Source: Kaistia algarum (GTDB lineage Bacteria; Pseudomonadota; Alphaproteobacteria; Rhizobiales; Kaistiaceae). Taken from it: a stretch of DNA of 64,000 bases. Made by a program: the position numbers and the translations under genes. The first letter of the stretch is position 1. Every line of letters begins with the position of its first letter. Location of the stretch: contig NZ_JAPKNJ010000001.1 in NCBI RefSeq assembly GCF_026343945.1, positions 1,488,001 through 1,552,000 of the forward strand, given 5' to 3'. A model generated the notes under the pieces. It saw only the letters and a program-made list of their open reading frames with translations. It did not search any database and was not told the DNA's origin. Below, piece by piece: positions 1 to 14,752 of the stretch.

Positions 1-881
1 TGCTGCCGGATACGGTGCTGTTGTTTGGCCAGACGGCTATGCCGCGCGAGCGGCTCGACCGGGCGCCCCATCTGAAGGCGATCTTCAACGTCGAGAGCAA
101 TTTCCTGCCGAATGTCGACTATCAGGCCTGCGTGGAGCGCAACATCCCGGTGCTCTCGCCCGGCTCAGCCTTCGCCGCGCCGGTGGCGGAAGCGGCGCTC
201 GGCATGGCGATTGACCTTGCCCGAGGCATCACCGAGGCAGACCGCGACTTCCGCGCCGGGCGCGAGAAATACGGGCTCGAGGCGAACACAAAGACCTTCC
301 GCCTGATGGGCGCCCCGGTCGGGCTGATCGGCTTCGGCGATCTCGGCAAGAGCCTTCGCGAGCTGATCCGCCCGTTCAAGAACCGCGTCGCCGTCTATGA
401 TCCCTGGCTGCCGGACGAGATCATCCGCCGCCATGATTGCGAGCCGGGCAGCCTCGATGAAGTGCTGTCGACCTCGAAGGTCATCTTTGTCTTTGCCGGC
501 ATCACCAGCGAGAATCAGGGCCTGATCGACGCCCGCGCTTTCGCCAAGATGCAGAAGGGTACGGCCTTCCTGCTGATGAGCCGCGCCGCGATCGTCGATT
601 TCCCGTCCATGCTGGACGCGATCCGCTCAGGCCATATCAGCGCGGCGGTCGACGTGTTTCCCGAGGAGCCTGTGCCGGCGGACGATCCGGTGCGTCGCCT
701 CCCCGGCATCCTCCTCTCCGCCCACCGCACCGGCGGCACGACCGACGCGCTCTTCGCCATCGGCCGCATGACCGTCGCCGACGCGGAACTGATCATGAAG
801 GGCCTGCCGCCGCAGCTCTGCCGCAAGGCCGATCCCGCCATCGCCAGCCGCCTGCGATCCAAGCCGGTCAGCATGACCTGA
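1..881 (+). CDS. D-2-hydroxyacid dehydrogenase, NAD-binding (5' end cut by window)
   Basis: Member of the D-isomer-specific 2-hydroxyacid dehydrogenase family (phosphoglycerate/glyoxylate dehydrogenase relatives), cytosolic NAD(P)-dependent oxidoreductases. The frame is open to the first base, so the true start is probably outside the window; a GTG at 15 is the first internal candidate. Seen: a Rossmann motif GLIGFGDLGKS about 100 residues in, then the family's catalytic Arg (SRAAIVD), Glu (FPEEP) and His (LSAHRTGG) in the right order. The substrate cannot be told from sequence. The convergent neighbour is a ribitol-dehydrogenase-like SDR, so a sugar or polyol acid pathway extending upstream is a reasonable inference. 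A strong hairpin follows the stop codon. Confidence 0.88.
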   Translation, partial: LPDTVLLFGQTAMPRERLDRAPHLKAIFNVESNFLPNVDYQACVERNIPVLSPGSAFAAPVAEAALGMAIDLARGITEADRDFRAGREKYGLEANTKTFRLMGAPVGLIGFGDLGKSLRELIRPFKNRVAVYDPWLPDEIIRRHDCEPGSLDEVLSTSKVIFVFAGITSENQGLIDARAFAKMQKGTAFLLMSRAAIVDFPSMLDAIRSGHISAAVDVFPEEPVPADDPVRRLPGILLSAHRTGGTTDALFAIGRMTVADAELIMKGLPPQLCRKADPAIASRLRSKPVSMT

Positions 882-900
882 GACAGACGCTTTCAGCCGA

Positions 901-924
901 TAGGCCGGGCAGGGTCCCGGCCTA
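901..924. terminator. Perfect 9-bp hairpin between convergent genes
   Basis: TAGGCCGGG (901-909) and CCCGGCCTA (916-924) pair perfectly around a 6-nt loop. It sits between the hydroxyacid dehydrogenase stop (881) and the 3' end of the convergent SDR gene (965), the expected place for a bidirectional terminator. There is no clear T-run on either side, so intrinsic termination is inferred from position and stem strength only. Confidence 0.6.
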
Positions 925-964
925 GGCACGCCGCGCCATTGAAATGCTGCGCAGAGAGGCTGCG

Positions 965-1693
965 CTAGACGTCGAAATTGGTCGGCAGCACGATCATGTC
1001 GTGGATCGTGACGTTGCGCGGGCGGCTGAGAATGAACAGAACAGCGGCAGCGACCTCGGATGGTTCGATGAGCGCTCCATCATCAATCGCAGCCTGAAGC
1101 CGCTCCGGCTGCCAGTCAGCGAGCAGAGCCGAATTCACAGGCCCCGGCGAGACTTGCGACACGCGGACGCCGTGACGATTGACCTGGCGGCGGGTCGTCT
1201 GCGTGAAGCAGGTGATGGCCCATTTCGAAGCGGAATAGACCGGCTCCGGCTTGATGGCAGAATGGCCCGCCACGGAGCATGTCACGACGATGTCGCCACC
1301 GCCCCGCTCGATCATGTGCGGCAAGACGGCATGCACGTTCTTGATCACGACATTGACGTTGAGGTTCAGCATCCGATCGATCGTGGCGGCGTCTGTGTCC
1401 ACGAGATCGCCGCCGATATAGGTTCCGGCGTTGCAATGGAAGATATCGATCCGACCGGTCTTCGCCAGGATCTGAGGCACCAAGGCGTCGCACTGCTCCG
1501 TGTCGAGAAGATCAGTTACCTGCGCGATGGCCTTGCCGTTCCACTTCGATGTCAGCGACGCCAGAGCGGCTTCGTTGCGATCGACCATGACCACGGTCGC
1601 GCCGGCACTCATCAAGGTCTCGGCCGTGGCGAGCCCGATGCCGGAACCCGCCCCCGTGATGACGGCAATCTTTCCCTCGAGTTCATTGGCCAT
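965..1693 (-). CDS. SDR oxidoreductase, ribitol 2-dehydrogenase-like
   Basis: Classical short-chain dehydrogenase of 242 residues. Seen: N-terminal cofactor motif TGAGSGIG, the NAG motif in FHCNAGTYIGG, catalytic Ser (TCSVAG) and the YSASK active site. The stretches GRIDIFHCNAG, TTRRQVNRHGVRV and the C-terminal VLPTNFDV resemble ribitol 2-dehydrogenase (ribitol to D-ribulose, NAD-linked) as I remember that family, so a polyol substrate is likely but unproven. A longer reading begins at 1759, but ATG 1693 is chosen because GGGAGG lies 7-12 bases upstream of it and the SDR fold starts there. The upstream gene on the same strand (metallophosphoesterase) ends 90 bases away and looks functionally unrelated. 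Confidence 0.87.
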   Translation of the reverse strand: MANELEGKIAVITGAGSGIGLATAETLMSAGATVVMVDRNEAALASLTSKWNGKAIAQVTDLLDTEQCDALVPQILAKTGRIDIFHCNAGTYIGGDLVDTDAATIDRMLNLNVNVVIKNVHAVLPHMIERGGGDIVVTCSVAGHSAIKPEPVYSASKWAITCFTQTTRRQVNRHGVRVSQVSPGPVNSALLADWQPERLQAAIDDGALIEPSEVAAAVLFILSRPRNVTIHDMIVLPTNFDV

Positions 1694-1783
1694 TTTCGTT
1701 CCTCCCTGAACGTCGTCAGACGATGGTTTAGCCGCCGTCGATAGCCGAGGCGCATGCAATCGTCCGCCGCATCCGCATGTGAT

Positions 1784-3541
1784 TCACGGCAAGACTGGAG
1801 ATGCACGCTCGCCGGGCAGGTCGATCCGGTCCGGCTTCAGAAGGGCGATACGACCGCCGGGACGAACTTCGAAATTGTGGACGTAAAAGTACGTGTCGTC
1901 GCTGTCCCGGGCATTCATGACCGGCGACGGCGCCGAGACGATGAGCAGCCCGCCGCAGGTTCCGATCCAGTCGACATGGCGATGGCCATGCATCATCACC
2001 GCGCGGCCGGCCACGCCGAGCATGCGGCGCACGAACCATGTGCCATTGGCGAGCGCTGTGCCGACGCGCTCGGACAGGCTCTTGGCCGCGCGCGGATATT
2101 CGACGACGTGATGATGCAGCGACAGCACCCAGCCGGCATCGGGGAAGTCCGCGATCACGCTTTCCACGGCGCGCGTCTGGTCGCGCGAGACGAGGCCGAG
2201 CGCGTTGGTGAAGGAGAAATGCGACTCGGCATTCGAATTGACGAGAATGACGCCGAGACCATCCGGCGTGGATGGCGGCAGCACCATCGGGTAGGCCGCC
2301 GTCCACAAATTCTCCAGCCGGATCGAAACACCGACGGCGCCGCTGTCGACAAAATGCTCGATGTCGCTCCGGTATTTCTCCATCAGCTCGGCGAGCGGGG
2401 GCCCGAGGTGCTGCGTTTCAGCATCGACGATGCGAACCCGGTCCCCCTGCAGCCTGGCAAAGGTCGATAGCGCGCGGAGCTGCCGCAGCCGCCGGTTCGG
2501 ACTGGTCGGCAGGTCGAGGCGGGCCGGATTGGCGCGATCGACGATGTTGAGATCGTGATTGCCGGGAATGGCGACGAGGCGTTCGACGAGCTGTGGATAG
2601 GGCTCCAGCTGATCGAGAAATTCCGCCCATTCCGACGAGCGGCCCGCATCGGTGACATCGCCGCTGACGAGCAGCACGTCGATGGGCTGCTCGCGGTCGA
2701 GGCGGTCGATCGTCGCAAGGGCGCGTTGCAGCCGCGCATTGCCGCTCGGACCGACCCGGCCGCTCTCGATGCGGAAGCCATAGCGTTCGCCGACGATGTG
2801 AATGTCCGAGAGATGCACGACGCGCCAGACGCGCGCGCCCGGCGTCCGGGTCGCAAAGGCGTCGAGATCGCGCGGCTGCGGCATCAGCGCGTCGGCCGTA
2901 CCCCACGCCAGGGCTGCGATCGCGACATAGATCGACAGCACGACGATGGAATTGAAGATCGCCACCATGATGACATGCGACGAGAAATGCAGGTCGGCCA
3001 GTGTGCCGGTCCAGCGCGCATAGGGCCAGGCCTGACGCGCCAGCCAGATCGAGAACAGGCAGACGAGCAGTCCGGCCAGCGCCGCGCTCCAGGAGCGGCT
3101 GCGATCGCGCGCATTCTGGCTCATGCCGGAGGGCAGGATGCGTTCCACGAGATGGCGCAGCACCTCGCGCGCCAGCGCATAGCCCGGCTGGACGGCGAGC
3201 GCGTTCAGCGACCAGAAATTGGTTTCCATCAGCCGCCAGAGACGCCGTCCGCCCCACCAGCCCACGAAACCCAGCACAATGAGGATCAGCGGCGGACCGA
3301 AGCCCGTGTAGAGCACGAAGGCCTGGGCCGAAACGGATTGCAACCAGATCGAGACCAGGAAGGGAGCGAGGCCGACCACCAGCACGGGAAGGCCGATCAG
3401 AAGCGTCCAGGCAACGAGCAGCTTCGGGAAACTGATCTCGGCGAGCAGGCTGCCGGCGAGCGAGATCAGCGTCCGACTCTTGGTACTCGACGCATCGTCT
3501 TCAAGGTCACCGTCGCGTGGATCGACGATCGGCCGCATCAT
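1784..3541 (-). CDS. Membrane-anchored metallophosphoesterase
   Basis: A 585-residue protein with an N-terminal membrane region and a C-terminal calcineurin-like phosphoesterase domain. Seen: about four hydrophobic segments (roughly residues 40-68, 74-98, 154-172, 185-210), then the metal-binding motifs in order: LSDIHI near residue 247, SGDVTD, PGNHDLN, HHHVVEY and HGHRH. All metal ligands expected for a dinuclear site are present, so it should hydrolyse a phosphoester at the membrane face. The reading frame runs on to 4378 but only into the shadow of the divergent gene; ATGATG at 3536-3541 preceded by GGGAGA gives the start. It is divergent from a MurJ-like flippase across 255 bases; the substrate is unknown. 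The N-terminal region matches nothing I recognise. Confidence 0.85.
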   Translation of the reverse strand: MMRPIVDPRDGDLEDDASSTKSRTLISLAGSLLAEISFPKLLVAWTLLIGLPVLVVGLAPFLVSIWLQSVSAQAFVLYTGFGPPLILIVLGFVGWWGGRRLWRLMETNFWSLNALAVQPGYALAREVLRHLVERILPSGMSQNARDRSRSWSAALAGLLVCLFSIWLARQAWPYARWTGTLADLHFSSHVIMVAIFNSIVVLSIYVAIAALAWGTADALMPQPRDLDAFATRTPGARVWRVVHLSDIHIVGERYGFRIESGRVGPSGNARLQRALATIDRLDREQPIDVLLVSGDVTDAGRSSEWAEFLDQLEPYPQLVERLVAIPGNHDLNIVDRANPARLDLPTSPNRRLRQLRALSTFARLQGDRVRIVDAETQHLGPPLAELMEKYRSDIEHFVDSGAVGVSIRLENLWTAAYPMVLPPSTPDGLGVILVNSNAESHFSFTNALGLVSRDQTRAVESVIADFPDAGWVLSLHHHVVEYPRAAKSLSERVGTALANGTWFVRRMLGVAGRAVMMHGHRHVDWIGTCGGLLIVSAPSPVMNARDSDDTYFYVHNFEVRPGGRIALLKPDRIDLPGERASPVLP

Positions 3542-3796
3542 CCGTCTCCCGATTTCCAGAGGTCGCTGGTTCCTCGTAAGGATTCCCAGCGGCCTCGGGG
3601 CGACCCTAAGCGAAAACCGCGCCGGTGGAAGCGTCCAAATCGCGACGGTATGTCGCCAATCCCCTGCCATGGGGTCCCGGATCCGATCGGGGCTTGCGGA
3701 GCGGGTGCCGTTCGGTGAATACCGGCTGGCCCGCTGCTTGCCGGTTCTCGCTGGTTCTTGGCCCGCTCCGGACCCGTTCGTGAAGAGGAAGCCTCC

Positions 3797-5437
3797 TTGG
3801 CCGATACGCCGCCGAGCCAACGCCCCCCGAGCCACGCCCGCACGGTCGGTATCGCCTCGGCGATCTGGGGCGCCTCGATCTTCCTCTCCCGCATCATGGG
3901 CCTGGTCCGCGAGCAGATCATCGGCCGGACTCTGGGCGCGAGCCGACAAGCCGATCTCTATTTCGCTTCCTTCACCCTGCCCGACTTCCTGAACTATCTG
4001 CTCGCCGCCGGCGCGCTCTCGATCGTCTTCATCCCGATCTTCCTCAAATACCTCCAGGCGGGCGACCAGTGTCGTGGCTGGGAGGCGTTCAGCGTCATCG
4101 CCAATTTCATCCTCGTCGTGGGAACGCTCGGCATCGCCCTGATGATGATTTTCGCGCGGCCGCTCGCCGAGATCATCGCTCCGGGATTCACCGCGCCGGC
4201 CGAGATCGAAACGCTGGTGCGGCTGATGCGCATCATCCTGCCGGCGCAATTCTTCCATGTGCTCGGCGGCCTGCTCTCGGCCTCGCTCATGGCGCAGGAC
4301 CGGCACGCCCTGCCAGCCATCGCGCCGCTGGTCTATTCCGGCTGCATCATCGCGGGCGGGCTCTTCGGAGCCTATCATCCCGAGCTTGGTGCCGAGGGCT
4401 TCGCCTGGGGCGTGCTGGCCGGCTCGATCCTCGGCCCGTTCGGCCTACCGCTCTATGGGTGCCTGCGGACCCATATGCGCTGGTTCCCGATCTTCTCGTT
4501 CAAGAACGAGGATCTGCGGCGCTATCTGGTGCTGTCGCTGCCGATCATGGTTGGCTTCTCGATCGTCGTCGTCGACGAATGGATCGTGAAGAACCAGGCG
4601 TCCTATCTGGCGGCCGGCGCGCTCTCCTATCTTCAATATGGCCGCACGCTGATGAAGGTGCCGATCGGCGTCTTCGGCATGGCGGCGGGCGTCGCCTCCT
4701 ATCCGACCATCTCGCGCATGGTCGCGGCCGGCGACGTCGTCGAAGCCTACCGGGTTCTAGCCCGCGCCGTTCGGCTGATGCTGGTCGCGATCTTGGGCGC
4801 GCAAGTCTGCCTGACCTTGGCCGGCTTCGAGGCGGTTTATGTGATCTGGGGCCTGTTCGGCAGCCGCTTCACCGCGGCTGATGCGCAGGCCACTTCGGGC
4901 GTGCTGGTGTTCCTCAGCCTCGGGCTCGGCGGCTGGGCGGCGCAGACGGTGATCAGCCGCGGCTTCTACGCCCTCGGCAGCACCTGGCTGCCGACCCTGG
5001 TCGGCACGGGGATCACCATCGCTATGATCCCGCTTTATGTCGTCCTGCGCATCCATTTCGGCGCCGACGGTCTCGCCGTCGCGAGCTCGATGGCGATCCT
5101 CGTCTATGTCTTCCTGCTGGGTTGGCTGCAGCGCCGTCGCTTCGACCGCGAGGCGGCGGAGCGGGGAACATCGCTTTCCGGCGTTCCCGGCATGCTGTCG
5201 GCGGCGCTTCGCCTGGCGGGGGCCGCCGCCATCGCCATCGGCGGCGGCTGGGCGATCCGCCTGGCGCTGCTCACGGTTCTGCCCGGGGTCGACGCCGTGT
5301 CGCTGCTGGGGCGCGGCGCTGTCCTCTGCGGCGCCGGGCTCGGCATCTATGCGCTCGCCGCGCGGCTCTTCGGCGTGAGCGAACTCGCCGATCTCGCCAC
5401 GATGCTCACCCGCAGGCTGCGCCGAAAGAGGGCTTAG
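3797..5437 (+). CDS. murJ: MurJ-like lipid II flippase family protein
   Basis: A 546-residue polytopic inner-membrane protein of the MOP/MVF superfamily with about 14 hydrophobic segments. Seen: the family-typical opening SRIMGLVREQIIGRTLG followed by ADLYFASFTLPDFLN and the LSIVFIPIF segment, plus internal GALSYLQYGRTLMKVPIGVFG. MurJ flips undecaprenyl-linked peptidoglycan precursors across the membrane; this sequence is divergent from the usual alphaproteobacterial MurJ, so it may be a paralogue for another lipid-linked sugar. The frame is open from TTG 3758; TTG 3797 is preferred because GAAGAGGAAG lies just upstream. The neighbour across the divergent promoter is a membrane metallophosphoesterase, which would suit a lipid-phosphate related role (inference). 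Convergent with the UspA gene, 8 bases away. Confidence 0.8.
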   Translation: MADTPPSQRPPSHARTVGIASAIWGASIFLSRIMGLVREQIIGRTLGASRQADLYFASFTLPDFLNYLLAAGALSIVFIPIFLKYLQAGDQCRGWEAFSVIANFILVVGTLGIALMMIFARPLAEIIAPGFTAPAEIETLVRLMRIILPAQFFHVLGGLLSASLMAQDRHALPAIAPLVYSGCIIAGGLFGAYHPELGAEGFAWGVLAGSILGPFGLPLYGCLRTHMRWFPIFSFKNEDLRRYLVLSLPIMVGFSIVVVDEWIVKNQASYLAAGALSYLQYGRTLMKVPIGVFGMAAGVASYPTISRMVAAGDVVEAYRVLARAVRLMLVAILGAQVCLTLAGFEAVYVIWGLFGSRFTAADAQATSGVLVFLSLGLGGWAAQTVISRGFYALGSTWLPTLVGTGITIAMIPLYVVLRIHFGADGLAVASSMAILVYVFLLGWLQRRRFDREAAERGTSLSGVPGMLSAALRLAGAAAIAIGGGWAIRLALLTVLPGVDAVSLLGRGAVLCGAGLGIYALAARLFGVSELADLATMLTRRLRRKRA

Positions 5438-5445
5438 ATCCCGCC

Positions 5446-6222
5446 TCAGTGCGAGACGAGGATGGGCACAAGCATCTGATGCACCAGCGTATTGCTGGCG
5501 CCGCCGAACAGATCCTCGCCAAGGCGTGAATGGCCATAGGCGCCGGCGACGACGAGATCCACCTCAAGCAGCGCCGCGCGTTGCAGAAGCTCGTCACCGA
5601 TCGTCATCTCGAAAGTCGGCATCGTGTCGAATGTAGCGGACAGCCCATGGCGCGCGAGATGGGCGATCAGCCGCTCCGCCTTGGCCGCGCCATCCCCGCC
5701 GAGCGAAACGATGTGGATCGTCTCGCCGCCCTTCAGCAACGGAAGCGCATCATGCAGCGCGCGGGAAGCCTGCGGACTGCCATCCCAGGCGACGAGAACG
5801 CGCGAGAAGGGCGGCGGCGCCAGGCGGCTGATCGGCAGGCCGAGGATCGGCCGCCCGCAGGAACGTACGATCTCCTCGATGCGGAAGCCCTGTGGATCCG
5901 GGCCAATATCGTCCGGCGAGCCGAGCCCGATCAGGGCCAGATCGCAGTAGCGGATCTGCTCGGCAATATCCGCGGCCAGAGGCCTGTCGCCAAGGATCCA
6001 GGCGCCGGTCAGGTGTCTGAGGCCGAGCTGTCGATCGAATTCCTGATGGACCGCCTCGGCGATGTCCTGAGGCGAGCCTTCGAGGTTCATCCCGACGGTC
6101 GGCGAGGCGTAGTAGCCCACGAGATGGGCCGCATGCTGCTCGGCGAGGTCGAACGCATATTGCATGCGCTCACGTCCGGTTTCCGACATGTCGATGCTGA
6201 CGAGAAGCGACTTGATGCTCAC
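5446..6222 (-). CDS. Tandem-domain universal stress protein (UspA family)
   Basis: A 258-residue cytosolic protein with two UspA-type domains. Seen: domain 1 begins SLLVSIDMSETGR and domain 2 begins near residue 138 with VLVAWDGSPQASRAL; the second ends with the ATP-binding signature GAYGHSRLGEDLFGGASN, while the first has only a reduced LIGLGSP version. Tandem UspA proteins act in stress and low-oxygen survival in alphaproteobacteria. Start at ATG 6222. A TTGAC-N4-GTCAA palindrome of the FNR/FixK type lies about 145 bases upstream (6361-6374), supporting control by oxygen. Convergent with the MurJ-like gene. Confidence 0.9.
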   Translation of the reverse strand: MSIKSLLVSIDMSETGRERMQYAFDLAEQHAAHLVGYYASPTVGMNLEGSPQDIAEAVHQEFDRQLGLRHLTGAWILGDRPLAADIAEQIRYCDLALIGLGSPDDIGPDPQGFRIEEIVRSCGRPILGLPISRLAPPPFSRVLVAWDGSPQASRALHDALPLLKGGETIHIVSLGGDGAAKAERLIAHLARHGLSATFDTMPTFEMTIGDELLQRAALLEVDLVVAGAYGHSRLGEDLFGGASNTLVHQMLVPILVSH

Positions 6223-6604
6223 GATGTCTACCCCGCGGCCTGATCCTTACAGGGTGCCCGGCAGATCGACGCCCTCATGCGCCTTGATGGCGTGCCAACC
6301 CGGCTCCGCCCTGCCGCCCCTCCTCGCCATGACGATAGAGCAGCCAAGCCAATCAGGGCCTTGACCTGCGTCAATCACGCGCGGCGCGCCGCCCCGGCGG
6401 CGGGCATTCCGAGATACCGGCCGACGCGCTTGGTACAGCCAGCGGTGGCAATACAACACTGGGACCACGGCGGCGTTCGCCAAGAAAAACCTCGTTCCGC
6501 ATGGCAACGATTCGCCGCTCTACGCAAACGCGCAGAGCTGTGCTATCGGCGATGTGCCCCTGGCTGCAATTTATAGTTCCGCAGCTTTGCCAACGAGAAT
6601 CGAA
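6223..6604. other. Divergent intergenic region uspA / opgG
   Basis: These 382 bases separate the UspA gene from the glucan biosynthesis gene. Short open frames here (for example 6247-6507 on the minus strand) have no recognisable motifs, poor start contexts and biased composition, and I do not call them. The only structured element seen is the FNR/FixK-like palindrome at 6361-6374, listed separately. Confidence 0.5.
6361..6374. promoter_or_regulatory. FNR/FixK-type box TTGAC-N4-GTCAA
   Basis: TTGACCTGCGTCAA is a perfect dyad with half sites TTGAC/GTCAA around CTGC. The FNR/FixK family binds TTGAT-N4-ATCAA, and in alphaproteobacteria the C/G variant at the fifth position is common (family knowledge). 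It lies between divergent uspA and opgG, centred about 145 bases from the uspA start codon and 237 from opgG. UspA genes are frequent targets of this regulator class, so uspA is the likelier target; that assignment is inference. Confidence 0.55.
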
Positions 6605-8185
6605 ATGATCCAACCGACCCGCCGCGACACCCTGCTCACGCTTCTCTCCGCCCTCGCCGCCTCCACCCTGCCCTCGCTCGGTCACGCCGCGCCTGCCGAT
6701 GAAGGCCTCGCCCTCGGCCCGGCGCAGCCCTTCTCGTTCGACCGGCTGAAGGCCATCGCCGAAGAAGCGGCGCGCCAGCCCTGGAAAGACGAGCGCTCAC
6801 CTTATGGCGCGATCCTCGACAAGATCGACTATGACAATTTCCAGGCGATCCAGTTCAACAAGGATTATTCGCTCTGGTCGGACGGAAAGGGCGGGGCGCC
6901 GGTCCAACTCTTCCATCTCGGCAAGTATTTCCAGGAGCCGTGCCTGATCCATGTCGTCGAAAACGGCGAGGCACGCGAGATTCTCTACCGCCAGCGCTAT
7001 TTCGACTTGCCCGCCAAGCATCCGGCGCGAGACCTTCCCGACGATATCGGCTTCTCCGGCTTCCGCGTCGAGGCGCCATCGCAAAAGACGGACTGGCTCG
7101 CCTTTCTGGGCGCCTCCTATTTCCGCTCCTCCGGCGCGCTCGACCAATATGGCCTCTCGGCGCGCGGCATTGCCATCGACACCGCCCTGCCCGACGCGCA
7201 GGAGGAATTCCCCCGCTTCTCGCAGTTCTGGCTGGAACGGACAGCCGGCGTCGAGAACGAAGTCATTATCTACTGCCTGCTCGACGGCCCCAGCATCACC
7301 GGCGCCTATCGCATGGTCGCCTCGAAGGACAAGGGCGCCGAAATCGACGTCGATTGCACGCTCTATCCGCGCAAGCCGATCCAGCGCCTCGGCGTCGCGC
7401 CGCTGACCTCGATGTACTGGTATTCGGAGACGGTGCGCCGCCGCGCCATCGACTGGCGGCCGGAAATCCATGACTCCGATGGCCTCGCCATGTGGACCGG
7501 CACGGGCGAGCGCATCTGGCGGCCGCTCAACGATCCGCCCTTCGTCTCGACCAACAGCTTTCTCGATGCGGACATTCGCGGCTTCGGGCTGCTGCAGCGC
7601 GACCGCAATTTCGACCACTATCAGGACGACGGCGTGTTCTACGATCGGCGGCCGAGCGTCTGGATCGAGCCCAAGGGAAAATGGGGCAAGGGCCAGATCC
7701 AACTGGTCGAGATCCCGACCGACCGCGAATATGACGACAACATCGTCGTCTACTGGGTTCCGGACAAGCCGGCGGTTCCCGGCGCGGCGCTCGATTTCTC
7801 CTATCGCATGTACTGGAACGCCGACGAGCCCTTCCCGGCGGATCTCGCCCGCGTCCAGGCGACCTATATCGGCGTCGGCGGCATTCCGGGCCAGCCACGC
7901 CCGCCGGGCAGCATCCGTTTCGTGATCGATTTCCGCGGCGGCAAGGCCGACAGCCTGAAGCGCGGCGACGGCACGCCCGAGATCACACTCTCGCGCGGCA
8001 AGGTCACCCTCGCCGACGCCTTCCCGGTCGTCGCCGGCGAGCCGGGCCTCTACCGCGCCTTCTTCGACACGGTCGTCGAGGGCGACGCCCCGCTCGACAT
8101 GCGCCTCTACGTCCGCGGCAAGGACGGCACCGCGCTGACGGAGACCTGGCTCTATCAGTATTTCCCGAAGCTCAGCCCGGTCTGA
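6605..8185 (+). CDS. opgG: Periplasmic glucan biosynthesis protein, OpgG/OpgD family
   Basis: A 526-residue secreted protein of the MdoG/OpgG family, which builds the branched beta-glucan backbone of osmoregulated periplasmic glucans. Seen: a twin-arginine-like leader (TRRDTLLTLLSALAAS, cleavage after GHA near residue 29), then the domain opening FSFDRLKAIAEEAARQPW and YDNFQAIQFNKDYSLW, and an Ig-like C-terminal part with RFVIDFRG. Length matches the family (about 500-550). The Tat-type leader points to the OpgD branch, although in alphaproteobacteria one gene often serves both roles. The frame opens earlier at 6554 but ATG 6605 is where the signal peptide starts. No opgH glucosyltransferase follows, which is unusual since opgG and opgH are often adjacent; opgH must be elsewhere if present. 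Confidence 0.87.
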   Translation: MIQPTRRDTLLTLLSALAASTLPSLGHAAPADEGLALGPAQPFSFDRLKAIAEEAARQPWKDERSPYGAILDKIDYDNFQAIQFNKDYSLWSDGKGGAPVQLFHLGKYFQEPCLIHVVENGEAREILYRQRYFDLPAKHPARDLPDDIGFSGFRVEAPSQKTDWLAFLGASYFRSSGALDQYGLSARGIAIDTALPDAQEEFPRFSQFWLERTAGVENEVIIYCLLDGPSITGAYRMVASKDKGAEIDVDCTLYPRKPIQRLGVAPLTSMYWYSETVRRRAIDWRPEIHDSDGLAMWTGTGERIWRPLNDPPFVSTNSFLDADIRGFGLLQRDRNFDHYQDDGVFYDRRPSVWIEPKGKWGKGQIQLVEIPTDREYDDNIVVYWVPDKPAVPGAALDFSYRMYWNADEPFPADLARVQATYIGVGGIPGQPRPPGSIRFVIDFRGGKADSLKRGDGTPEITLSRGKVTLADAFPVVAGEPGLYRAFFDTVVEGDAPLDMRLYVRGKDGTALTETWLYQYFPKLSPV

Positions 8186-8212
8186 GGCGCGGCGAAAGAT
8201 GCTGCCGGCCGG

Positions 8213-9394
8213 TTACAGGATCCGGTCGGCAATCATCTCCCCGATCGGCAGCGCCGACGTCGCGGCGGGGGATGGCGCGTTGAGGACATGCAGCATCCTG
8301 TCGGTGCCGCCGAACAGAAAATCATGCACCAGCGAGCCGTCGGCCAGCACGGCCTGCGCCCTTATGCCGGCGGGATAGGGCTTCAGGTCGTCGACCCGGA
8401 GCGATGGGCAATATTTGCGGCATTGCTCCAGATAGCCTGAGCGCAGCAGCGAGTTGCGCATCTCCGTCAGGCCGGACCGCCAATTGGAGCCAAGGACGCG
8501 CCAGAAGCCGGGGAAGGCCACCATGTCGGCGATATCCCGCCAATTGACCGCGCTCTTGGCATAGCCCTCGCGAGCGAGGCCGAGCACGGCGTTCGGCCCG
8601 ACCGTGACGCGGCCATCGATCATCCGCGTCAGATGGATGCCGAGAAAGGGCAGGTCCGGATCCGGAATCGGATAGATGAGATGCCGGACGATGTCGTTCT
8701 TCGCTTCCGGCAACACATAATATTCGCCGCGGAACGGGATGATCCGGTGCGCGGTCTCCAGTCCCGCCATCCGGGCGATCCGGTCCGATTGCAGACCCGC
8801 GCAGGCGACGAGCTTGCGGGATTTCAGGCTGCCCTCCGCCGTATCGACCTCGATGCCATCGACGGTTTCGCGGATCGCAAGCGCCGCACGTCCCAGCGCG
8901 ATGGTAGCGCCTTTCGCCTCGGCCTCGGCGGCGAGCGCCCGGCAGATCCGGCGGTAGTCGACAATGGCCGTCGAGCCGGCCAGCAGCGCCCCGCGTCCGG
9001 CGATATTCGGCTCGCGCTCGGCAAGTTCCCCAGCGGAGATGCGCTCGATGGCGATGCCGTTCGTCTCGGCGCGCACGGCCAGGTCGCCCATGCGGGCCAG
9101 TTCCTGCTCACTGGTGGCGACGAGCAGCTTTCCGCATTCGTCATAGGGGATGCCATGGGTTTGGCAGAACGCCTTGGTCGCCTCGGCGCCCTCGCGGCAG
9201 AGGCGAGCCTTGAGGCTGCCCGGCGCATAATAGATACCGGCATGGATGACGCCGCTATTATGGCCGGTCTGGTGCGATCCGACCTCGACTTCCTTCTCCA
9301 GCAGCAGGAACCGATCCTGCGGCCGCCGCCGCTGCAACGCCCGAAGCGTCGCCAGCCCGACGATGCCGCCGCCGATCACGATATAGTCGTACAT
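8213..9394 (-). CDS. lhgO: L-2-hydroxyglutarate oxidase
   Basis: FAD-dependent oxidoreductase of the DAO fold, 393 residues. Seen: N-terminal dinucleotide motif GGGIVGLATLRAL directly after YDYIVI, then the LhgO signature TGHNSGVIHAGIYYAPGS where the flavin-contacting His-Asn-Ser cluster lies, the IVDYRRICRAL segment and the C-terminal FGGTDRMLHVLNAPSPAATS. It oxidises L-2-hydroxyglutarate to 2-oxoglutarate and passes electrons to quinone or oxygen, a metabolite-repair and lysine/glutarate catabolism step. ATG 9394 is chosen over an upstream in-frame start at 9454 because the FAD motif begins six residues after it. It stands alone: no glutarate hydroxylase (csiD) or gab genes adjoin, so a repair role is more likely here. 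Convergent with opgG. Confidence 0.93.
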   Translation of the reverse strand: MYDYIVIGGGIVGLATLRALQRRRPQDRFLLLEKEVEVGSHQTGHNSGVIHAGIYYAPGSLKARLCREGAEATKAFCQTHGIPYDECGKLLVATSEQELARMGDLAVRAETNGIAIERISAGELAEREPNIAGRGALLAGSTAIVDYRRICRALAAEAEAKGATIALGRAALAIRETVDGIEVDTAEGSLKSRKLVACAGLQSDRIARMAGLETAHRIIPFRGEYYVLPEAKNDIVRHLIYPIPDPDLPFLGIHLTRMIDGRVTVGPNAVLGLAREGYAKSAVNWRDIADMVAFPGFWRVLGSNWRSGLTEMRNSLLRSGYLEQCRKYCPSLRVDDLKPYPAGIRAQAVLADGSLVHDFLFGGTDRMLHVLNAPSPAATSALPIGEMIADRIL

Positions 9395-9879
9395 CCCCGA
9401 TTCCCGAACTGTGGCCTGCGTCGGACCATGACACCACAGGGCGCCTTGCGCCACACGGGGGAGTGGCTCTGGAGGTTATAGCCCGGTCGAAGGCGGCCAT
9501 AGGGGCGCCGCCGGATCGAGGCGCCATTTGCGCCGGCCACACCCTCGATTGCGAGGCGATTTCGCGGGGGGATAGTGCGGCAAAGAGACGGCGAGACTGA
9601 GTTGACGGCGGCGGACATCATTGGTCGGCGTTCCGCGCAGGACCTACTGGGTGAAGAAACTCGTCACTTAGAAAATCAATACGCTTCGACATGACGATCG
9701 ACGCTCGATTTCGTCAAATCCAGATCGGTCATAGTGACTGGCCGGCAGCACCCTTTCAGCGCTCATATTCTGGCTGTGGGGCGTGGTCGTCGCGAAGGTC
9801 ATGTGAGCGGGGTAATACCAACTTTTGCTTTTATCGTGGGTTGTGCAATTCTCTTGTCACCGGGTGGGGAGGGAGTTGA
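9395..9879. other. Intergenic region leading into an AT-richer accessory patch
   Basis: These 485 bases upstream of the two unknown genes contain no ORF I can support; a 62-residue frame at 9691-9879 has no motif and no good ribosome site. Base composition changes from GC-rich to roughly balanced around 9640-9660 and stays so to about 11520. No inverted repeat, integrase remnant or copy of the tRNA-Thr 3' end could be seen by eye. Confidence 0.45.
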
Positions 9880-10818
9880 GTGACTGACAAGAGGGAAAAA
9901 ACGTTAAACTATCGCCGGGCGTCTTGGATAACCAAGCAGCCGTCATCTACCACCTTGGGGCACCTGCTGATACAGGCAGCAACCAAGCTCAATACCGCGA
10001 CAGATCGATCTATTCAGCGGGATGGTGGTCAATGGCTTCGGCTTGCACACATAAAGCCAGACGGAAACGCCGCTGCATACCTACACATTACCGAAGACAC
10101 TCCTGGCGAACAGGCTTCCGCAGTACCGAAGGTGACAAAAACAACCCTTTCGATTGACGTTACAACTGTCGAACCTCCCGACAATCGTGAATTTATGGAT
10201 GGTGACGCGCTATTATACGTTTGTCGTGACGAAGTCGTTCTTTGTACAACATCTATATCAGCGCAGGCCGTGGATTTTTTCCTACAAAAATTTCTTTCCC
10301 TTGCGAAAATAAGACACGATGCTGATCAATTCATTCTACAACCGGTCTCAGATCAAGACGCGTTGAAGACCTTGCAGATGCAAGGTGTCAAAGAAATACA
10401 TCTCGGCGCCGTTCTATATCAGGCATCGATGAGCTATATTCAACGACAACATCATCCTCAGGGAATGCTTGGGGCATTGGCCAAGTCCGTCAAGGCCGTT
10501 CTCGGATCCGAGCATGATGTAACGCCCGATGCGCTTACCGTATCTGTTGTCCTAAAGAAGGACGGAAGGATGAAGGGCAAGAGCGTCGGAGACGCTCGCC
10601 TACAGGCCTTAGGTGAGAAGATCGTCACCGACCAGCAGGTAGGCGACGACTTCGCAATAATAACAAACGACGATCAGAAAATTACGCCTCAATCAATCGC
10701 AGTAAAGACGCATACTCTTATCGAGTCACTAGGAAAATCGGTTACGCGGGAGGATGCGTGGCTTAGCCTGAAGGCTTTCTTTGATAAATTAGTTAGCAAC
10801 GGAACGATTGAACAATGA
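9880..10818 (+). CDS. Uncharacterised cytosolic protein (possibly DUF4747-like)
   Basis: A 312-residue protein without signal peptide or membrane segment. I do not recognise it with confidence; the run KTLNYRRASW, then DRSIQ, WLRLAHIKPDG, LHITEDTPGE and REFMDGDALLYVCRDEVVLC recalls my memory of the uncharacterised DUF4747 family, which I cannot check. Start is GTG 9880 with a strong GGGGAGGG at 9866-9873. Codon use and base composition are clearly AT-richer than the housekeeping genes on either side, a sign of horizontal acquisition. The stop overlaps the region of the next start (TTG 10808 or ATG 10820), so the two genes are almost certainly one transcript. The pairing of a soluble protein with a small 4-TM protein is the layout of several two-gene anti-phage modules, which is inference only. 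Confidence 0.7.
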   Translation: MTDKREKTLNYRRASWITKQPSSTTLGHLLIQAATKLNTATDRSIQRDGGQWLRLAHIKPDGNAAAYLHITEDTPGEQASAVPKVTKTTLSIDVTTVEPPDNREFMDGDALLYVCRDEVVLCTTSISAQAVDFFLQKFLSLAKIRHDADQFILQPVSDQDALKTLQMQGVKEIHLGAVLYQASMSYIQRQHHPQGMLGALAKSVKAVLGSEHDVTPDALTVSVVLKKDGRMKGKSVGDARLQALGEKIVTDQQVGDDFAIITNDDQKITPQSIAVKTHTLIESLGKSVTREDAWLSLKAFFDKLVSNGTIEQ

Positions 10819-10819
10819 G

Positions 10820-11341
10820 ATGAAAATCGTCTTCATCGCGTTCTGCGCAACGATTGGTGGGCTTGCGGCCTATTTTGGGCAGCCTTATGTGCGCGGAAAT
10901 TCCGATGCGCTGGTAATTATAGTAACTGTTCTAACGGTTTTCGCTGGATTCTTGGTCGCAATCATAGCTATCGTAGGCGATCCAGCAATGATTCCTGCAG
11001 GCTCCTGGCGCGTTGCGGAGCTACGACGCGAAACAATTGAGCATCGTCTTATCAATCATGTTTGGCTTTTCATAATATACCTCATCGCAATAGGCATTTT
11101 GTTCGCGGGTGTACTCATACGCGGATCACCCGCGCCCTGTTGGATTAAGGTCACGATTGAGAGAGCATTCTTATTTGCTGGCGTTACGTCGTTCATGCTG
11201 ACGTTTGCATTGCCCAACGCTCTCCTTAAACTGAACCTCGGCCGAATCGATATGGAAATAGAGCGCCGGCGCCAAGCAAGCGGTATCGCGGCTAACGTCG
11301 ATGCAAATTCCTCCGACCGCCAGCCGCAGCGCCATTTTTGA
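10820..11341 (+). CDS. Uncharacterised 4-TM membrane protein
   Basis: A 173-residue protein with four clear hydrophobic segments (about residues 2-20, 29-52, 77-100 and 112-135) and a charged C-terminal tail (IDMEIERRRQASG). No enzymatic motif is visible and I do not recognise a family. The start is uncertain: ATG 10820 lies 1 base past the upstream stop, while TTG 10808 overlaps the upstream gene by 11 bases. Either way translation is coupled to the upstream cytosolic protein. AT-richer than the window average, like its partner. A membrane effector partnered to a soluble sensor is one reading; nothing in the sequence proves it. Confidence 0.72.
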   Translation: MKIVFIAFCATIGGLAAYFGQPYVRGNSDALVIIVTVLTVFAGFLVAIIAIVGDPAMIPAGSWRVAELRRETIEHRLINHVWLFIIYLIAIGILFAGVLIRGSPAPCWIKVTIERAFLFAGVTSFMLTFALPNALLKLNLGRIDMEIERRRQASGIAANVDANSSDRQPQRHF

Positions 11342-11526
11342 TCGGTTCTCACTGTCATCCTCCTGTCGCCGCGTCATTCATCTCTAAAGCCGACAGGGAA
11401 CAAAGCTGGAATCAGGGTGTCAAAAACGTGCCGGAATGCTCGCAGGGTCCCGCATCGTTCTGCATTAAACACGATCTTAGAGGTGGAACTCCGCTCTCAT
11501 AAGAGATTGACGGCATTATAGAAAAA

Positions 11527-11601
<75 letters not shown>

Positions 11602-13930: not shown

Positions 13931-14752
13931 GTGGAACAAATACAGCAGAAGCCCGGAAATTTTTCGGTCTCACGCATTGTAGGTGCGGCCTATGCCGATT
14001 CGTGGCGAGCCGCCCGCGCGATACCCTTGGTTGTGTTTACGACATTCCTCCTGCTGTTGCTGATCTTCGCGGTTCGCAGTGCGCTCGGCCTCCAACCTGA
14101 CCAATTCCTACGAGATATACCTCTAGCGGACCGGCTGGCATTAAGTTCTGCGGCGCAGCCCTTTCTTTTCGCTGTCGCGCTTGCAACGATTTCGCTGCAG
14201 ATCGCGATCCATCGCTATGTTCTATGTGAGCAGCAATCTTCCGCTTGTTCCGCTTCGCTACGACGGAGGCAGTTCTGGAAGTACACGGCATTCGTTTTTG
14301 TGTTTCAGCTGACATCATTTGGCATAAGTTACCTTTATTTTACTGGAATTGTAATAATTTGTCCCGCTGCCGGATTATTTATGATGTATATAAAGGCTCG
14401 TTTCAGCCCGATATTTCCTGCGATAGCAATTTGTGATGACCGAAATATTTCATATTTCTTCCGCCTCTCGAAAGGACGCTTCTGGAAGATATTTATCGTA
14501 TCGATTTTCTGCTCAACCCCCTCATCAATTCTACTCTTTGTGCCCGGCGCTGTGGTTTCGTACCTCGATACCGGCCAATTGGTGATGGGTCTTCTCGCTG
14601 TGTTCCTCTATGCAACTTCCGCCCTGGTCACTTGCATGGTCACCACCGCAGCCGCTTCGCACATATACAGAGCGCTGGAGTACCCCTCTGCGCCCATGAT
14701 CACCAAGCTGGAGCAGGACAATCCGGCGACCGTAGTGCTCGCGGCACCGTAA
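13931..14752 (+). CDS. Unknown 6-TM membrane protein inserted before hisD
   Basis: A 273-residue integral membrane protein. Seen: about six hydrophobic segments (roughly residues 31-55, 72-96, 113-135, 136-160, 182-205, 217-245), with soluble charged stretches between, and no catalytic motif. I do not recognise a family. Start GTG 13931 follows a G-rich stretch (about 13915-13920). The gene is markedly AT-richer in its middle third than murA or hisD and interrupts the usual DUF2948-hisD junction, so it looks like a later insertion. Nothing suggests a link to histidine or cell-wall synthesis beyond position. Confidence 0.72.
   Translation: MEQIQQKPGNFSVSRIVGAAYADSWRAARAIPLVVFTTFLLLLLIFAVRSALGLQPDQFLRDIPLADRLALSSAAQPFLFAVALATISLQIAIHRYVLCEQQSSACSASLRRRQFWKYTAFVFVFQLTSFGISYLYFTGIVIICPAAGLFMMYIKARFSPIFPAIAICDDRNISYFFRLSKGRFWKIFIVSIFCSTPSSILLFVPGAVVSYLDTGQLVMGLLAVFLYATSALVTCMVTTAAASHIYRALEYPSAPMITKLEQDNPATVVLAAP

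Follow-up and report, generated by a model that had tools for sequence, protein, structure and literature searches.

The RexA–RexB pair of phage λ was, according to Rosendahl et al., the first abortive-infection (Abi) system tied to anti-phage defence, and by the 2026 count of the same authors, five RexAB-like systems have been described (PMC12894663); some further actinophage Rex homologues are listed by Adams et al. (PMC11077077). The working model for the systems of λ, CarolAnn, Sbash, and P. putida makes RexA the infection sensor. Once switched on by it, RexB acts as a channel or pore, through which the membrane is depolarised or damaged and growth stops (PMC12894663; PMC6426606; PMC6426596). 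The membrane protein is reported to be the effector in the RexABpp, CarolAnn, and Sbash pairs, which are likened to λ, and a Rex-like pair with reversed roles is described for the mycobacteriophage Butters (gp30/gp31; PMC12894663). The cited accounts also report that DNA binding by RexA is uncorrelated with exclusion (PMC11077077), that the Sbash system is thought not to be DNA-activated (PMC6426596), and that a contact between RexApp and RexBpp was not found in two-hybrid tests (PMC12894663). Two exchanges within the Sbash gp31 central loop are reported to impair defence (PMC6426596), and the Sbash pair is described as having its own promoter (PMC6426606). Sbash, Butters, and Rubeelu are also said to depart from the location in the CI-repressor immunity region (PMC11077077). 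The DefenseFinder search for RexAB was built on Pfam or COG material, and its matches are reported mostly from prophages and from Proteobacteria only, limited detection being one possible reason (PMC9090908).

Here, we analysed a 64,000-nucleotide stretch of Kaistia algarum DNA (the window), in which two adjacent genes look like a distant, sequence-distinct cousin of λ RexA–RexB. The first-pass annotation had described them as two genes with coupled translation and their own strong ribosome site, AT-richer than their flanks, encoding a soluble 312-aa protein and a four-TM protein beside a tRNA-Thr gene, and the observation was borne out, with the coupling as plausible. The RexA-like gene, ORF1 (9880..10818, plus strand), encodes 312 aa from a GTG start and ends at the stop codon 10816-10818; its start (MTDKREKT) matches the starts of close relatives, and the purine-rich, ribosome-binding-like stretch GGGGAGGGAG can be read 5' of the GTG at 9866..9875 on the same strand. 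The RexB-like gene, ORF2 (10820..11341, plus strand, 173 aa), starts by family alignment with the ATG at 10820, as opposed to the alternative TTG at 10808 given in the ORF listing. As this ATG lies 1 nt past the ORF1 stop, coupled translation is plausible. A promoter scan, in which 1.7 sites were expected by chance, found none upstream of the pair and one promoter-like site within ORF2, and no intrinsic terminator was found.

The GC content of the pair is 0.495, whereas windows of the same length, slid in steps of 100, average 0.648 (sd 0.032). Only 3 of the 626 were as low, and the lowest of all, with its start at 9801, is the one that falls on the pair. Third codon positions follow the same trend, with a GC3 of 0.48 in ORF1 and 0.53 in ORF2 versus 0.82-0.87 in three other genes of the window. 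The AT-rich stretch that holds the pair extends over about 9600..11520 (GC 0.502; outer limits approximate) and contains no integrase gene. Its right edge is near the 3' end of the tRNA-Thr (GGT) gene (ARAGORN; 11527..11601, minus strand), which lies 185 nt from ORF2 on the opposite strand with its 3' end toward the pair. The left neighbour of the pair is presumably lhgO, and the right neighbour, beyond tRNA-Thr, presumably murA, both names being taken from a reading of the translations only. When the translations of the window were read, no repressor or prophage genes adjoining the pair were noticed and no neighbouring defence genes were recognised. Another AT-rich gene of the window (13931-14752; GC 0.486 in 14001-14500) encodes a 273-aa hydrophobic-looking protein and was possibly also acquired.

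A complete tRNA-bounded element around the pair is not supported, since repeat and att searches did not find the tRNA 3' end repeated to its left. The corresponding tRNA regions in 11 of the 13 other genomes of the genus gave no blastn match to window positions 1-11505 within the 16-19 kb to the left of the tRNA; short blastn matches elsewhere in the window were seen for three of these 11 regions. An integrase-like gene begins 61 nt from the tRNA-Thr 3' end in two of the genomes (G002 and G009), and in a third (G012) the longest frame of such a gene overlaps this end, the domain scores of the three genes being partly at or under the Pfam cut-offs. Moreover, G002, G011, and G012 carry a copy of the tRNA end, 26-31 nt long, about 12-17 kb away. 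Judged from these sequences, integrase-bearing elements in the genus appear to use the 3' end of this tRNA-Thr (GGT) gene as a hot spot for integration.

The ORF1 protein has no TM segment by hydropathy and a predicted pI of 6.5. In a Foldseek search of the PDB, its predicted structure matched λ RexA with a TM-score of only 0.33-0.38, the alignment covering 141 of the 312 residues. The predicted fold, that of RexA, is also found in non-defence proteins. The block-mean pLDDT of residues 181-220, which lie in the presumed dimerisation domain, was only 46-51. An alignment of 32 sequences of the family revealed the motifs YRRAxW, GVKEIxL, and DEFxIxT. The N-terminal residues K7, R12, and R13 are also conserved, which is only suggestive of non-specific DNA binding and dimerisation.

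Neither protein of the pair was recognised by Pfam, NCBIfam, or PADLOC, and neither matched a metabolic family in Pfam or NCBIfam, an outcome that would have spoken against the first-pass reading. At its curated cut-off, the Pfam RexA model (PF15969) matched neither ORF1 nor any other of the 32 members of the alignment, and it matched nothing in the K. algarum genome, where the control matched nowhere either. The same was true of the Pfam DUF4747 model (PF15931), in the alignment as well as in the genome with its control. Thus, the resemblance to DUF4747 that the first-pass annotation had tentatively noted in fragments of ORF1 did not hold as a family match. However, a DUF4747 motif is reported in λ RexA and Sbash gp30, with a weak match in CarolAnn gp44 (PMC6426596, PMC6426606), and the hunch pointed in the right direction because λ RexA is the structure match of ORF1. 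Relatives of ORF1 were present among the PHROG families: the match to phrog_26543 spans the entire protein (E 2.8e-22) and that to phrog_3482 residues 62-311 (E 5.9e-8). Both are viral families without an assigned function, and viral relatives of ORF1 therefore exist; λ RexA sits in a different family, phrog_12654. A protein search with ORF1 alone gave 4 matches and one with the ORF1 alignment 21 among the best 7997 candidates scored, each including the window's own. Searches of phage records with the ORF1 protein and three relatives found no match, nor did a scan with the protein of locus L082, and a scan with the CarolAnn protein found one contig, which its length and identity mark as CarolAnn itself.

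Kinship with Rex was also assessed at the sequence level, by hmmsearch and by hhalign, the latter with alignments both small and enlarged, and with reversed sequences as controls; six of 17 viral loci were used, the others being near copies by their listed identity. The enlarged ORF1 family aligned with ten RexA sequences colinearly over 246 columns, nearly the whole length (P 0.0097). With the three most distant relatives added, P was 0.026, and with these three alone 0.57, the reversed-RexA controls for the same three sets giving 0.78, 0.37, and 0.70, and actinophage Rex 0.18, 0.19, and 0.15. A single λ RexA scored P 0.042-0.062 and CarolAnn gp44 P 0.11-0.24 against the ORF1 family, and the L082 protein alone scored P 0.46 against λ-type RexA. 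In hmmsearch, the ORF1 family profile gave E 0.038 for one RexA, 0.65 for that of λ, and 0.25 for the reversed control. These comparisons with their controls gave no significant sequence link of ORF1 to λ or actinophage Rex. The hhalign test is itself weak, as the accepted relatives λ RexA and actinophage Rex reached only P 0.49 in it. Profiles of such depth cannot decide, and the kinship of ORF1 with RexA therefore rests on fold, gene order, and partner.

Hydropathy indicates four TM segments in ORF2. The AF2 model (pLDDT 78.9), which had no fold match among solved structures, has helices at residues 2-24, 28-52, 63-100, 107-128, and 130-153. Lysines and arginines number 0 in the N-terminus, 1, 4, and 3 in the three loops, and 7 in the C-terminal tail; this distribution places the tail most likely in the cytoplasm, and with four segments the N-terminus and the TM2–TM3 loop would lie there as well. 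A motif in TM2 and the central loop is conserved around A42 G43 ... G53 D54 P55 ... W63, and its loop residues G53, D54, P55, and W63 are common to at least 70% of 16 proteins. A protein search with ORF2 gave 147 matches, with the window's own as one of the 120 listed, and 22 of the matches were taken into the ORF2 family alignment. The λ RexB family, phrog_14878, was absent from the PHROG matches of ORF2 (hhalign P 0.48), and λ RexB scored a non-significant E of 0.054 against the ORF2 family profile in a set of 18 sequences.

The pair was followed in 20 loci: that of the window, a second pair in the same genome (L002/L060), L003 (Rhodobium orientis; also G086), L004-L007, L008 (identical to L011), L009, L010, L014/L061, L056, L057, L059, L081, L082, L083, L084, L087, and L090. 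Those designated L008, L009, and L010 are viral contigs; L056 (Ketogulonicigenium vulgare, one of three matching records of the species) and L057 (Sinorhizobium fredii) are on plasmids. A small membrane ORF lies directly 3' of the soluble gene in all 20, counting L084, in which the RexA-like frame is broken by stops inside the match; in the other 19 the soluble gene is intact (~300-350 aa). Searches with the membrane protein as the query led, for the first time or again, to 13 of the 20 loci, so the linkage is valid from both sides. The membrane protein has four hydropathy segments in 16 loci and three in L014, L056, L081, and L083 (at a stricter threshold, three in L059 and two in L083). Moreover, the two proteins diverged in parallel: their distances correlate with r 0.91 over 16 loci (L014, L084, L087, and L090 left out), which none of 2000 permutations reached, and among the eight close pairs with r 0.82, reached by 6 of 2000. 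The soluble gene could be recognised by sequence in 19 of the 20 loci. In the exception (L090, 431-1860), a gene upstream of the four-TM relative, overlapping it by 4 nt, encodes a 307-aa protein whose sequence is not recognisable and which may be an even more distant member of the RexA-like proteins.

The distribution is patchy. With K. algarum itself included each time, ORF1 occurs in 3 of 101 relatives, 2 of 385 genomes of the class, and 6 of 398 genomes of the phylum, three of these six outside the class; ORF2 occurs in 3 of the 101 relatives and 3 of the 385 genomes of the class. Neither was found in any of the 13 other genomes of the genus. With this absence and with linkage in every locus, the pair does not consist of unlinked core genes, an outcome that the earlier annotation had named as evidence against its reading. 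As to settings, the L008 pair adjoins a gene whose product carries a phage integrase central domain (E 1.1e-5, slightly below the cut-off), and the L010 pair lies upstream of a terminase small subunit gene (E 1.5e-17). In L082, a CI-type repressor gene precedes the pair by ~590 nt; this is the only locus in which a CI-like gene upstream of the pair was tested and found. A neighbour of the L083 pair reads to us as presumably terminase-like, a reading that had no Pfam support, and a large ORF near the pair on viral contig L009 had no Pfam match. The L056 plasmid pair is near type I R-M genes. The second pair of the K. algarum genome (L060 4580-8503; G000:C1 ~280.6-284.5 kb) is diverged, with 23% identity to ORF1. 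Next to it are a DUF1828 gene that matches PDC-M24B, a candidate defence model of PADLOC (6.1e-17), and a 173-aa ORF for which no family was found; directly downstream of the pair lies an IS1595-type transposase (Pfam; L060 7475-8503). We also take the ORFs directly downstream of two further pairs (L004 3663-4757 and L007 6677-7195) to be transposase-like.

Compared with the studied systems, the window pair shares with λ RexA–RexB the predicted fold of the first protein, the order of soluble and then four-TM gene, and the short spacing. It differs in its longer proteins (312 versus 279 aa, and 173 versus 144 aa) and in its location: instead of a CI repressor operon, with the typical immunity-region position behind a CI-type repressor, it occupies a chromosomal site between a chromosomal gene and tRNA-Thr. 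RexABpp of P. putida (PP_5643-5644) is, unlike the window pair, reported from a prophage (PMC12894663). The Sbash gp30/gp31 and CarolAnn gp44/gp43 pairs resemble the window pair in consisting of a soluble and a four-TM protein, the latter with an important central cytoplasmic loop, and in the overlap of their genes, but their RexA-like proteins are ~370 aa long, and no sequence relation to the window pair is detectable.

The predicted fold of ORF1, its four-TM partner, the gene order and tight spacing, the linkage, the paired divergence, and the patchy distribution all support the pair as a RexAB-type system, and we consider it likely that ORF1 and ORF2 form a free-standing phage-exclusion (abortive-infection) system of this type. 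The earlier reading of a two-gene anti-phage module is supported, the predicted ORF1 structure leading to λ RexA. The role of the pair is probably defence. By analogy with the studied Rex systems, from which dimerisation, DNA binding, activation, pore formation, and defence are carried over, ORF1 would be a two-domain RexA-like protein, expected to dimerise and to bind DNA non-specifically. Infection may activate it, the signal being either a protein of the phage or intermediates that arise as phage DNA replicates or recombines. ORF2 would be a RexB-like four-TM protein of the inner membrane, silent until activated ORF1 engages its TM2–TM3 loop; it may then open as a pore, the membrane would be depolarised or damaged, and growth and phage production would stop.

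Control in either direction would be compatible with the paired divergence and the conserved central loop, and nothing in the sequence decides between the two. The soluble protein could itself be a toxic antiviral effector that the four-TM protein holds inactive at the membrane until infection, as in the reversed roles described for Butters gp30/gp31; against this, the membrane protein is the reported effector in the three λ-like pairs, RexABpp, CarolAnn, and Sbash (PMC12894663), and we regard such an arrangement as unlikely. Comparably improbable in our judgement is that the genes are a phage moron pair for lysogeny control or element maintenance, which moved to the chromosome and is now neutral or regulatory. 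RexA without RexB is reported to bias the λ lysis–lysogeny switch (PMC11077077), and the relatives L008, L009, L010, and L082 sit on viral contigs or adjoin phage genes. However, both frames of the window pair are open and keep the family-conserved residues even though no repressor or prophage genes were noticed next to it, and pairs are also borne by plasmids, one of them beside R-M genes.

Kiwa, the first idea for the pair, has the same make-up of a membrane and a DNA-binding protein (PMC12904381). Here, the membrane protein would sense phage entry and place its DNA-binding partner on the incoming DNA, and no pore would form. This idea was set aside because neither window protein had a PADLOC match (for KwaA–KwaB, at E up to 1) and the structure match of ORF1 is RexA; we give it very little weight. 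Kiwa was not among the PDB matches listed, which does not count against it. The Kiwa models are presumably in the PADLOC library, and in Kiwa the membrane gene comes first.

The branch to which ORF1 and ORF2 belong is missed by Pfam and PADLOC, and among the titles and abstract openings listed from the open-access literature we recognised no account of it. With somewhat less assurance than for the pair itself, we incline to a wider view. RexAB-type systems would be a broad superfamily barely seen by current profile libraries. At least one sequence-distinct branch, present in Alphaproteobacteria and extending to other classes of the phylum, would have left the λ-style immunity region; it would be carried by chromosomes, plasmids, and prophages as a two-gene defence cassette that stands by itself and in some genomes occurs twice. 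Should the branch act as RexAB does, the system is more widespread than is now known. The residues conserved in the 32-sequence sensor alignment (YRRAxW, GVKEIxL, DEFxIxT) and in the membrane-protein alignment (GDP and the central loop) could then be used to probe how Rex is triggered and how its pore works.
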